In this document: piece by piece, positions 11,769 through 32,927 of the stretch
Layout of the letters: the number at the start of each line of letters is the position of its first letter
Position numbering within the stretch: position 1 is the first letter of the stretch
Origin: Ferruginibacter sp.
GTDB taxonomy: Bacteria > Bacteroidota > Bacteroidia > Chitinophagales > Chitinophagaceae
Direction: 5' to 3'
Length of the DNA stretch: 40,010 nucleotides
Assembly: GCA_030157685.1 (NCBI GenBank)
Contig: JAOAUI010000359.1
Span: 3,825 to 43,834 of the forward strand
Translations under genes and position numbers: made by a program
Notes under the pieces: model-generated
Database searches by the model: none
What the model was told of the DNA's origin: nothing
Seen by the model: only the letters and a program-made list of their open reading frames with translations

Positions 11769-13883
11769 TTAAACCACTTTCTTAAATTTAAGCCAGATAG
11801 AATTTATGGCCAGCACTACATCACTGAAACCCATAGCCAGCGCAGCAAGGCCGGGTTGTAATAAACCAACCGCAGCAATGGGTATGGCAACAATATTGTA
11901 AATAAATGCCCAGAAGAGATTTCCCTTAATTGTGATGAAAGTATGTTTACCCAAGCCCAAAGCCAGCGGTAAATGCTGAATACCTTTATTCATTAAAACC
12001 ACCTGTGCACTTTGTACGGCTAACTGGGTAGCATCGCTCATGGAAATACCGATGGTTGCTTTGGCAAGTGCTGGCGCATCATTTACACCGTCACCAACCA
12101 TTGCAACAGGTGTTTGGCTGTTTAAGTTTCCAATTATCTGTAGTTTTTCTTCGGGTGTTTTTTCGGCAAACACTTTATCTATGCCTAAAGCGTCAGCAAT
12201 TTTTTGGGTACGTTCCAAACTATCACCACTTAATAAAATGGTTTGTATATTTTTTGAATGCAGGTAACTGATTACTTCTTTTGCTTCTGTTCTGATTTCA
12301 TCTTCCACATCAAACCAGCCAACCAGTTTTTCATTCTGTAATAAATAAGCGGTATGAGATGGATCTTCTGTAAGTGATGAAGCAAGTTTATAAGAACCTA
12401 ATTGGTAAATATTACCGGCTGCATCTTCAGCCTTCATACCCAAACCTTTTATCTCTTCAATTTTTTTCCAGCTAAGCGGATTGTTTATTTTCCAACCGGT
12501 AGTTATTGCTTTTGCTATGGGGTGATTGGAATATTTCTCCAGCGAAAAAATAATTTGCTTAAACAAATTTTCATCAATAATGCTTTGCCATTTGCTGATG
12601 CTCATTTGTCCTTTGGTAAGTGTTCCGGTTTTATCAAATACAACGGTTGTAATGCTTTTAAACAGCTCCAGGCTTTTTGCGTTGCGGAACAGAATACCGT
12701 TTTTAGCAGCACGGCCCAGCCCAACAGCAATGGCAGCAGGCGTTGCAAGGCCCATGGCACAGGGACAACTGATTACCAGTACAGCAATACTTCTCATTAG
12801 TGAATTGGTGCCGCTAACATCAAAAGCAAAATAATTAATTAAAAAAGTAAGTACTGCAATGCCTAAAACTGCCGGCACAAAAATGGCGCTGATCTTATCT
12901 GCCAGTTGTTGAATGGGTGGTTTTTCTCCCTGTGCCTGTTTTACCAGTGTAAGTATATTGCTGAGAACCGTATCCTTACCAACAGCAGTAACCTGTGCCT
13001 TAACAGTGCCATCTGTAATGATACTTCCACCAATCAAAGCATCTTTTTTTGTTTTGTGGATGGGTTTACTTTCGCCGGTTAATAATGCTTCGTTCACATG
13101 TACATCGCCCCAAAGAATTTTACAATCAATGGGAACCTGCTCCCCGGTTTTTATTAAGATCAAATCACCAACATGCAGGCTGGTATTCTCAACCGGGAAA
13201 ATCAGTTCTTTATGTTCTTCATCAAAAGCGATCATATTGGCCATTACTTTTTGTTGTGCGGCCAATTTGTTCAATTCTTTTTGTGTTCCGGCAACAGATT
13301 TATGTTCTATCCATTCGCCCAAAAATACCAGGGTGATGATGGTGGCAGCGGTTTCGTAAAAAATATAATCCATGCCCAGGTTGCCAATGCTGCCGATGAG
13401 GCTATACACAAAAGCTGCGGTGGCACCAATGGCAATCAGCACATTCATGTTGGGAATACCCCGGCGTAAACTTTTAACCGCACTCACGCCAAAATAACCC
13501 ATACCAACAATGTAGACGGGAATGCAGATTGCCAGCTGTATCCATGGATTCATAAGAAAATGAATATGCCATGGTAACATGTGCAGCATTAAAACAAGGG
13601 TAAAGGGCAGGCAGAAGAGGAAGCGTTGTAAATGGTTGGAGAAAAATTTTGTTTGTGCTTTGTTGTTTGTTGTTTGTTGTTCGTTTACAACTTTGTACCC
13701 TAAATCAGCTATTCCTTTAGTCAGCTCTTCTTTTGTTTTGTTACCATTTAGTTCAAAACTTACTTCGCCACCAATAAAATTCACTTTCACCGATTGCATA
13801 CCTTCTTTTTGAAGATACCTGTTTATAGTTAAAGCACAGTTGGTGCAATCCATTCCTTCTACTTTCCAGTCAACTTTTTCCAT
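11769..13883 (-). CDS. copA: Heavy-metal (copper-type) P1B ATPase
   Basis: N-terminal HMA GMDCTNCALTINRYL, TGES, SCPCAMGLATP, DKTGTLT, MVGDGVNDAPAL. Confidence 0.95.
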   Translation of the reverse strand: MEKVDWKVEGMDCTNCALTINRYLQKEGMQSVKVNFIGGEVSFELNGNKTKEELTKGIADLGYKVVNEQQTTNNKAQTKFFSNHLQRFLFCLPFTLVLMLHMLPWHIHFLMNPWIQLAICIPVYIVGMGYFGVSAVKSLRRGIPNMNVLIAIGATAAFVYSLIGSIGNLGMDYIFYETAATIITLVFLGEWIEHKSVAGTQKELNKLAAQQKVMANMIAFDEEHKELIFPVENTSLHVGDLILIKTGEQVPIDCKILWGDVHVNEALLTGESKPIHKTKKDALIGGSIITDGTVKAQVTAVGKDTVLSNILTLVKQAQGEKPPIQQLADKISAIFVPAVLGIAVLTFLINYFAFDVSGTNSLMRSIAVLVISCPCAMGLATPAAIAVGLGRAAKNGILFRNAKSLELFKSITTVVFDKTGTLTKGQMSISKWQSIIDENLFKQIIFSLEKYSNHPIAKAITTGWKINNPLSWKKIEEIKGLGMKAEDAAGNIYQLGSYKLASSLTEDPSHTAYLLQNEKLVGWFDVEDEIRTEAKEVISYLHSKNIQTILLSGDSLERTQKIADALGIDKVFAEKTPEEKLQIIGNLNSQTPVAMVGDGVNDAPALAKATIGISMSDATQLAVQSAQVVLMNKGIQHLPLALGLGKHTFITIKGNLFWAFIYNIVAIPIAAVGLLQPGLAALAMGFSDVVLAINSIWLKFKKVV
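13651..13685. repeat. Heptamer array inside copA: GTTTGTG CTTTGTT GTTTGTT GTTTGTT GTTCGTT
   Basis: Five consecutive 7-nt units in register; encodes NEQQTTNNKAQT in the linker after the HMA domain. Confidence 0.8.
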
Positions 13884-16462: not shown

Positions 16463-17080
16463 CTATTTATACTTTCCAATCTCAATCACTTCCTCACAAA
16501 AACCATATTCTTCTTTTACATTACTGCTTACAATTACCAGTTTGTCTTTTGTATAATTGCTTACAAGGCTTTGGTACAAAGCAATGCCATCTGCATCTAA
16601 ATTGGTAGTTGGTTCATCCAGTAAAAGAACCGGTGTATTGCTGAAGAATGCCTGTGCCAGTTTCAGCCTTTGTTTCATACCACTGCTGAAATAGCGGAGC
16701 TGTTTGTTAACCGCCTTTTCCAACCCCACAATTTTAAGCATCTCTTCAATAGCAAGTGATTGTATTAAAGGTTTAAATTTTGAATGAAAGGCCAGCATTT
16801 CTTTAGCTGTCATTTCTTCAATCAGTTCCAGGTATGGGGCGGCTATTGAAATATTGGAGTAATGTTTCTCGTTGTTGGTTGTTCGTTGTCCGTCATTGTA
16901 TTCAATCGTTCCTTCGTTGTGTAAGGTGGCACCGGCTATAACCTGCAGCAGGGTTGATTTTCCGGAGCCATTGGGGCCCGTGATGGCGTAATTTTTACCG
17001 GAGATAAATGTATAACTGCAGTGACGGAATATCCACTCACGGTTAAATCGTTTGCCGGTATTTAATAAAGTGATATTCAT
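16463..17080 (-). CDS. ABC transporter ATP-binding protein
   Basis: Walker A GPNGSGKSTLLQ, signature YFSSGMKQRLKLAQ, Walker B VLLLDEPTTNLD. Confidence 0.93.
   Translation of the reverse strand: MNITLLNTGKRFNREWIFRHCSYTFISGKNYAITGPNGSGKSTLLQVIAGATLHNEGTIEYNDGQRTTNNEKHYSNISIAAPYLELIEEMTAKEMLAFHSKFKPLIQSLAIEEMLKIVGLEKAVNKQLRYFSSGMKQRLKLAQAFFSNTPVLLLDEPTTNLDADGIALYQSLVSNYTKDKLVIVSSNVKEEYGFCEEVIEIGKYK
16864..16898. repeat. Heptamer array inside the ABC ATPase gene: GTTTCTC GTTGTTG GTTGTTC GTTGTCC GTCATTG
   Basis: Five 7-nt units in register; encodes NDGQRTTNNEK between Walker A and the signature motif. Confidence 0.75.
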
Positions 17081-23134: not shown

Positions 23135-23211
23135 GAGCTTTTAGCTTTTAGCTATGAGCTATGAGCCGGGCACTTACGAAGTGCTAACAGCTCATAGCTC
23201 ACAGCTATCTT
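23135..23211. repeat. Heptamer-periodic palindrome between lpxD and the HD gene
   Basis: GAGCTTT TAGCTTT TAGCTAT GAGCTAT GAGCCGG GCACTTA CGAAGTG CTAACAG CTCATAG CTCACAG CTATCTT. Arms 23149-23166 and 23190-23207 match 17/18, with an inner GCACTT-ACG-AAGTGC hairpin. Confidence 0.85.
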
Positions 23212-24386
23212 AAGTAACAAATGTAATATTTTTTAACCTTGCCCATCAGGTTTTGATTGATCAGGGCATTATCCACTTCCGAAATATCTTTTACCGTGCC
23301 ATCTTTAAAAAGAATATGAATGTGCTCATCTTCCAGATTGTAGGTGCTGCTGGCTACTTCGCCGGTAAATACCAGCCAACCGGCTTCTTCGTTACTCAGG
23401 TTAAGTTTTGTTGCAGCTTTGGCCAGTTTTTCCTGTACCAGTACTTCATCAACCGGGTTGCCAAAGTACTGAACTTTCAGCAGCTGCCGGTTAATAATGC
23501 CATTGCAAAGAGTTGATAAAATTTTGTCTTCGTGATGGCACCAGCCTTTGATGGCTGCCGTTACATCGTAATCATCCAGGCTACAGAATTCTTCAAGTGT
23601 AACAGTTTGTATGGGTTTTGTAATAAAATTATGCAATGGTTGCTGTGTAGCCGCTTTAATATATTTAGCTCTTTTAATAATACGCTTCAACATCTGCTCG
23701 GCACACAACACGGTTTTGTGCAGGTAAACCTGCCAGTACATCAGGCGGCGGGCCACTAAAAATTTTTCTATTGAATAGATGGATTTTTCTTCCACCATCA
23801 GCTCGCCGTTATGCACGGTAAGCATTTTAATAATGCGGTCGTAACCGATAACACCCTCATTTACGCCGGAGAAAAAACTGTCTCTTGTTAAATAATCCAA
23901 CCGGTCCACATCTAATTGCCCGCTGATGAGCTGAAAAAGAAATTTTTTATGATAACTGTCGGTAAAAATTTCCAGAGCAAGGCCAAGCTTACCATCAAAC
24001 TGTTTGTTAAGTTCCTGAATGATCATCAGCGAAAGGTCTTCGTGATGCATACTTTCAACCAGCTCATGCTCCAGCGCATGGCTAAAAGGCCCGTGGCCGA
24101 TATCATGCAAAAGGATGGCAATTTTTGCAGCCTGTTCTTCGGCTGCCGTTATTTCAATGCCTTTATTTTTTAATTCAGACAGGGCATTACTCATTAAATG
24201 ATAGGCACCCAGTGCATGGTGCAGCCTGCTGTGTACAGCACCGGGGTAAACCAGGCTTGCCATCGCCATCTGGCTGATGCGACGCAGCCGCTGAAAATAA
24301 GGATGGCTGATTACTGCATAGATCAATTCATCATCAATGGTAATAAAACCATATACCGGATCGTTGATAATTTTTCTGAAAGGCAT
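23205..24386 (-). CDS. HD-domain phosphohydrolase (dGTPase-like/YdhJ type)
   Basis: MPFRKIINDPVYGFITIDDEL, YPGAVHSRLHHALGAYHL, ILLHDIGHGPFSHALEHEL, DVDRLDYLTRDSFFSGV. Confidence 0.93.
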   Translation of the reverse strand: MPFRKIINDPVYGFITIDDELIYAVISHPYFQRLRRISQMAMASLVYPGAVHSRLHHALGAYHLMSNALSELKNKGIEITAAEEQAAKIAILLHDIGHGPFSHALEHELVESMHHEDLSLMIIQELNKQFDGKLGLALEIFTDSYHKKFLFQLISGQLDVDRLDYLTRDSFFSGVNEGVIGYDRIIKMLTVHNGELMVEEKSIYSIEKFLVARRLMYWQVYLHKTVLCAEQMLKRIIKRAKYIKAATQQPLHNFITKPIQTVTLEEFCSLDDYDVTAAIKGWCHHEDKILSTLCNGIINRQLLKVQYFGNPVDEVLVQEKLAKAATKLNLSNEEAGWLVFTGEVASSTYNLEDEHIHILFKDGTVKDISEVDNALINQNLMGKVKKYYICYLR

Positions 24387-24391
24387 TAAAA

Positions 24392-24426
24392 GTTTGTTGT
24401 TGCTGGTTTGTTGTTTGTGGTTATGC
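24392..24426. repeat. Heptamer array upstream of the HD gene: GTTTGTT GTTGCTG GTTTGTT GTTTGTG GTTATGC
   Basis: Five 7-nt units in register, starting 6 nt upstream of the start codon. Confidence 0.7.
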
Positions 24427-32770: not shown

Positions 32771-32852
32771 GCGGATATGGCGAAATTGGCAGACGCACCA
32801 GACTTAGGATCTGGCGGAGCAATCCATGTAGGTTCGACCCCTATTATCCGCA
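32771..32852 (+). tRNA. tRNA-Leu (anticodon TAG)
   Basis: GCGGATA...TATCCGC acceptor, anticodon stem-loop CCAGA-CTTAGGA-TCTGG, T arm GTAGG-TTCGACC-CCTAT, long variable arm. Confidence 0.95.
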
Positions 32853-32857
32853 CTTAC

Positions 32858-32927
32858 GAATACAGAACAAGGAACAAGGAATATCGAATTTTGAAGTTCA
32901 TCATTCAGCATTCCTTGTTCCTTGTTC
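32858..32927. repeat. Heptamer-periodic palindrome between tRNA-Leu and tig
   Basis: GAATACA GAACAAG GAACAAG GAATATC GAATTTT GAAGTTC ATCATTC AGCATTC CTTGTTC CTTGTTC: ten in-register heptads; 18-bp perfect arms 32865-32882 / 32910-32927. Confidence 0.9.

Follow-up and report, generated by a model that had tools for sequence, protein, structure and literature searches.

Degenerate heptanucleotide arrays in a loop of an ABC-type ATPase and in other conserved proteins of Ferruginibacter and related Chitinophagaceae

The peptide GQRTTNNE of a Ferruginibacter ABC-type ATPase is encoded by a tandem array of 7-nt units. Our results suggest that this array is one of a set of dispersed, degenerate heptanucleotide arrays in Ferruginibacter and Chitinophagaceae, which would be made and homogenised at a 7-nt lag and kept where sequence is free; we give this reading a probability of roughly 0.6. 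Such arrays were found both in intergenic DNA and in the loops and linkers of unrelated conserved proteins. The stretch of DNA analysed here (40,010 nt, hereafter the window) belongs to a genome of 3.18 Mb recovered as a 457-contig bin, and it was compared with relatives from Ferruginibacter and other Chitinophagaceae, using one genome per species.

The array was recovered from the sequence, by TRF and by a period scan at 16871-16893 (+ strand), as GTTGTTG GTTGTTC GTTGTCC GT. Its three full heptads occupy 16871-16891 and are read on the complementary, coding strand as GGACAAC GAACAAC CAACAAC. The head-to-tail 7-nt units extend beyond chance length (period-7 score 11 over 23 nt) and mismatch at one or two of seven positions, while longer arrays usually have two or three variable columns. 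The host gene (16463-17080, - strand; Pfam ABC_tran, E 6.9e-27) encodes 205 residues and is present in 55 of the 59 genomes of the genus. Within it, the codons at 16868-16891 (- strand) specify residues 64-71, in the context D63-GQRTTNNE-K72. The preliminary description placed the array between Walker A and the signature motif, where insertions are tolerated, and the AlphaFold2 model agrees with a tolerant site: residues 63-72 form the loop joining strands 55-62 and 77-80, a beta hairpin (mean pLDDT 93.4), which presumably sits ahead of the Q-loop region. GQRTTNNE is most likely an inert beta-hairpin loop, with no function implied for the peptide.

A companion array of the TTGTTTG type (13652-13685, + strand; translation, TRF and period scan) is read as NEQQTTNNK in a linker of CopA, a copper-type P-ATPase (11769-13883, - strand; Pfam, with NCBIfam heavy-metal and copper P-type ATPase subfamilies). 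The two peptides had been called near-identical; they have QxTTNN in common, but no longer identity. This motif recurs because (AACAACN)n encodes the cyclic heptapeptide NN[EQK]Q[RPQ]TT in every phase. Their agreement in strand and frame had also been considered telling. Since 7 mod 3 = 1, any (AACAACN)n array of at least three units passes through all three reading frames, so the shared frame is no coincidence; and because the heptapeptide is identical in any phase, frame agreement carries no extra information. The agreement in strand is a matter of selection for the hydrophilic strand, acting as a filter: the sense strand was the more hydrophilic one in 27 of 29 in-gene arrays, and was usually free of stops in all frames.

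Related arrays lie in frame in several unrelated genes of the window's genome, those for CopA, Mfd, the E2 acyltransferase and RsmE besides the ABC ATPase. The search of the proteome that had been recommended returned heptadic peptides in three or more other unrelated proteins encoded by this genome, including Mfd (TNNQQRSTINFA), the 2-oxo acid dehydrogenase E2 component (EQQTTNNKPQTE, in the linker preceding the catalytic domain) and the 16S rRNA methyltransferase RsmE (TTNNQQYSTNN). Among relatives, comparable peptides were found in phosphoglycerate kinase (NNEQPTTNNEQP), MetH (KPTTNNQQPTT), a DNA polymerase III delta-type subunit (RPTTNNQPT) and an amine-oxidase-family protein (GNNQQPTTN). 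Counts of QxTTNN were similar to those of a reversed-pattern control (7 vs 8), which is no clean control because AAC-rich heptads match the reversed pattern too; the matches were then judged singly, and two or three of the seven were not heptadic. Two different arrays flank the E3-binding domain in the E2 acyltransferase gene of the window's genome (L280:1244-1282 and 1499-1529, on contig C115).

We followed three linkers across relatives: the ABC ATPase loop (81 homologues), the linker that follows the HMA domain of CopA (56) and that of Mfd around residue 350 (63). Tandem segments were present in 11, 8 and 12 of these, respectively, and all 31 had a period of 7, with none of periods 4-6 or 8-13. 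The same linker carried different heptads in different species. Linkers bearing heptads were also longer (one-sided p of 0.0012, 0.01 and 2e-6 for ATPase, CopA and Mfd, respectively), these values being approximate because the homologues are akin and a few genomes were added for heptads elsewhere. No heptad array was present in the Mfd linker of 29 genomes drawn from the class. Several Mfd matches (e.g., L325, L341, L344) were reported with an in-match stop codon although the open frame covers almost the full length. Separately, a record titled Streptomyces griseus (L240) encodes this Chitinophagaceae ATPase at 66% identity, and its name is probably wrong.

It had been suggested to check whether the array site is a gap in alignments with homologues. 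This holds for distant relatives, in which heptads lengthen the ATPase loop by 12 to 41 residues (L251, L258, L262, L268, L272, L276, L277), but not for the nearest three, L199, L200 and L201 (88, 85 and 80% identity), in which the loop is as long as in the window's ATPase. A clean insertion in the window's ATPase was therefore rejected. The heptads of L199 are almost identical to those of the window's ATPase and in the same register. L200 reads GGTCAAT GGCCAAT CACCAAT with the register unchanged, and the last base of each of its three units differs jointly from that in the window's ATPase, falling at codon positions 1, 2 and 3, as expected of DNA-level homogenisation between units. As the preliminary description had predicted, the peptide was absent from homologues that lack heptads, at most its NNE/NEQ end being kept (L031, L036, L038); this end may have been part of the array seed. 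That the peptide stems from a shared family of DNA heptads and not from protein homology is thus well supported, both by the exclusive period of 7 and by the variation of heptads among species.

Six segments of period 7 were found in the window by the period scan, and none of periods 4-6, 8-11 or 13; no other short period gave several segments. Outside the two genes, the arrays of the window include an intergenic one of the AACTCAT type (245-276; TRF and period scan) and an intergenic inverted pair of the AGCTATG type, with its left arm at 23136-23166 (TRF and period scan) and its right, complementary arm at 23183-23207 (TRF). TRF also reported a weak GTTTGTG-type array (24392-24422) just upstream of the start codon of the gene at 23205-24386 (- strand). 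Another intergenic inverted pair, GAACAAG / CTTGTTC (32865-32927; TRF and period scan), lies in the spacer that separates tRNA-Leu (32771-32853) from the next gene. The pairs at 23136-23207 and 32865-32927 are hairpin-capable, one of them just upstream of a start codon and the other after tRNA-Leu. In a survey of 100 distinct arrays, 28 had a reverse-complement partner no more than 160 nt away, against 2.1 expected; the ATPase array was without an inverted partner at the threshold used.

Across about 360 kb of unmasked sequence from the window's genome, we counted 16 period-7 arrays. Ten of them fell in the 31 kb of noncoding DNA, the other 6 in the 328 kb called as coding by simple ORF rules. 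Periods 4, 5, 8, 10 and 11 together gave three arrays in the same coding DNA. The relative G035 was richer, with 12 arrays in 65 kb, several of its stretches having been picked for heptads or for a studied gene, and a 50-kb stretch of E. coli K-12 had none. Array density is thus higher in noncoding DNA, yet the mid-gene linkers of three proteins are recurrently hit, and the mid-gene suppression expected of a simple sequence repeat with a non-triplet unit was not seen in them. A single fixed heptad dispersed in the genus was rejected, as three copies of GTTGTYS occurred in just 3 of the 59 genomes. We also dropped a scheme of five conserved and two variable bases per unit, since the variable columns showed no preference for adjacent positions (9 of 20 cases, with one third expected). 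One 12-unit array near a gene end (L197:12419-12505) has TGAAT every 7 nt, and the two bases between vary (TG, GG, TA, GT, TT).

These patterns are consistent with a DNA-level process that works at a 7-nt lag and both creates the arrays and homogenises them. Slippage during replication, misalignment or template switching would be candidates for this process, possibly with spread between loci. Persistence would then be limited to sites that tolerate arbitrary sequence, and within genes the filter would be an open, hydrophilic sense strand together with a net length change divisible by three. Because a 7-nt slip shifts the frame, growth within genes needs steps of 21 nt or length-neutral conversion. 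We set aside templating by a telomerase-like enzyme or another reverse transcriptase, there being no evidence for it.

Heptads are partly shared between the loci of one genome. Sharing of 5-mers between array loci was 0.181 within genomes and 0.114 between genomes, a value as high being reached in 1 of 2000 label shuffles, and within-genome sharing of heptads was uneven, being low in G014 and G040. ACCGTTT/CGGTTAA is common to the ATPase and Mfd linkers of all three of G198, G199 and G200, and GAAACAA to CopA and Mfd of G195. Purely local slippage alone does not predict heptads common to unlinked loci, though these could follow from base composition or from a starting vocabulary that the loci have in common. 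We tentatively raise the possibility that Chitinophagaceae harbour a genome-wide heptad-generating process, the products of which, in a species-specific vocabulary, would spread between unlinked loci and continually seed new loops of conserved proteins. If true, this would be a case of protein-loop evolution driven by a non-triplet DNA repeat outside the Rickettsiales. In a further observation, the CATCCAG/TATCCAG class (or its complement) was seen in three genomes (L009:8127-8153, L276:1720-1764, L311:2751-2817), a hint of a limited heptad vocabulary in the family.

The heptads in common at unlinked loci would also be expected of a dispersed mobile or selfish element which, in the manner of the Rickettsia palindromic elements, would spread by copying to new loci and persist in frame within protein loops. 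The greater length of heptad-bearing linkers (as many as 41 extra residues in the ATPase) and the frequency of inverted arms fit this explanation as well. Against it, neither common ends nor a constant element sequence were found, many heptads exist per genome, and the ATPase site of the window has no gap relative to its nearest homologues. We found no discrete mobile element, a MITE-type empty site was absent for the window's ATPase among these homologues, and the sole match in a plasmid search was 47 bases of another ABC ATPase gene. We therefore consider a mobile element unlikely. The original proposal that the same DNA element is translated in both proteins survives in part: a heptad family is indeed common to them, but heptads differ within and between genomes, and neither fixed ends nor an empty site were found.

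The many hairpin-capable inverted pairs could alternatively indicate that heptads are functional sites, recognised by a nucleic-acid-binding protein or acting as terminator or attenuator hairpins, with in-gene copies kept for that function. There is a precedent in Beggiatoaceae, where TAACTGA heptamers lie just upstream of start codons and a regulatory role has been proposed (PMC4679880). The same site nonetheless has another sequence in other species, and most species have no array, which argues against a conserved binding site. The heptads also matched no Rfam family (tRNA was the sole match in the window), and the ATPase array is among those without an inverted partner. A functional origin thus appears improbable.

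Ordinary evolution of low-complexity N/Q/T linkers, giving rise to heptad-like DNA by chance and codon bias, is disfavoured and very hard to sustain. These loops do vary in sequence and length, relatives without arrays have the NNE/NEQ end, and random synonymous recoding of CopA yields a score of 11 in 4% of trials. The observed CopA score, however, is 19.5, which none of 4000 recodings reached. For the ATPase, the observed score was attained in 0.4% of 4000 random synonymous recodings of the same protein (P 0.004) and in none of 4000 shufflings of the linker's own codons; together with the sequence itself, this confirms the initial claim that a heptad array lies inside the ATPase gene. Shuffled-codon DNA gave 2.2 period-7 arrays per Mb, against the 6 observed in 328 kb. 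Moreover, triplet periods (6, 9, 12) are absent from the linkers, and the same heptad family also occurs in intergenic DNA, such as (GTTGTCC)n at L010:1583-1648. That the arrays are assembly or binning artefacts of metagenome-derived genomes is scarcely credible: the window's genome is a bin of 457 contigs and five isolate loci of about 3.6 kb each are without arrays, but arrays occur in few-contig genomes (L352 of the single-contig G113; L189 of the 5-contig G043), their reading frames are open and independent genomes agree on position.

Dispersed, degenerate arrays homogenised at a 7-nt lag, the reading we prefer, bear on how protein segments are compared and how they arise. Suppression within genes has been reported for repeats whose unit length is not divisible by three (PMC4692102, PMC4679880), and a survey found repeat density in coding sequence to be high in Bacteroidota (PMC12699852). 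Despite the reported suppression, the Mfd, CopA and ABC ATPase loops are hit across many species, each time by another heptad. They form a natural series in which to ask how simple DNA gives rise to new protein segments, why a unit of seven is preferred and whether such repeats move between loci. They also call for caution, as short peptide matches between unrelated proteins of Ferruginibacter and related bacteria can mean DNA repeats and not homology or shared function. Our literature search, which had most subscription journals and all preprints outside its scope, turned up no account of conserved proteins in which the same loops repeatedly hold heptad arrays.

Three known systems invite comparison. 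Heptameric simple sequence repeats have been described in bacteria, with GGGAATC in Xanthomonas and GGGGAYT in Nostoc (Mrazek 2007, as summarised in PMC4679880 and PMC4692102), and the excess of heptamers was earlier linked to polymerase slippage (Mrazek 2007, as cited in the same two papers). The Ferruginibacter arrays resemble them in their 7-nt unit, degenerate copies, many loci, variation among close relatives and frequent inverted pairs, 70 cases of convergent inverted heptamer pairs being known from X. campestris (PMC4692102). According to these summaries, the bacterial repeats comprise one G-rich, quadruplex-forming heptamer per genome and are 7-11% intragenic; the Ferruginibacter arrays differ in having many AT-richer heptads per genome and in that conserved proteins carry them repeatedly in the same loops. 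TAACTGA direct repeats of Beggiatoaceae, Cyanobacteria and some Bacteroidetes (MacGregor 2015, PMC4679880) are likewise built of directly repeated heptamers; most lie between genes close to start codons, and some occupy tolerant positions in ORFs. They consist of one fixed heptamer, related heptamers being rarely repeated, whereas the unit of the Ferruginibacter arrays varies by locus; TRF listed no TAACTGA tandem unit in the window.

The closest parallel in protein-coding genes is offered by the Rickettsia palindromic elements (Ogata 2000, as described in PMC10969869 and PMC3767692). As portrayed there, these too are in-frame repeat DNA in unrelated essential genes, at exposed sites, and give similar peptides in unrelated proteins; one and the same site is occupied by different groups of elements in different orthologues (PMC3767692, PMC10969869). 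The solvent exposure of the ATPase site rests on the AlphaFold2 model, and that of the other proteins is suggested by interdomain position. In the same accounts, the elements measure about 100-150 bp and have defined families and palindromic structure. No family consensus of that length was found here: the ATPase array is 23 nt long, and heptads differ by species at the same site. The arrays described here are thus short, have no fixed ends, are not always palindromic and belong to another phylum. Heptamer repeats as such are already known; their recurrence in the same loops of conserved proteins is the part that appears to be new.
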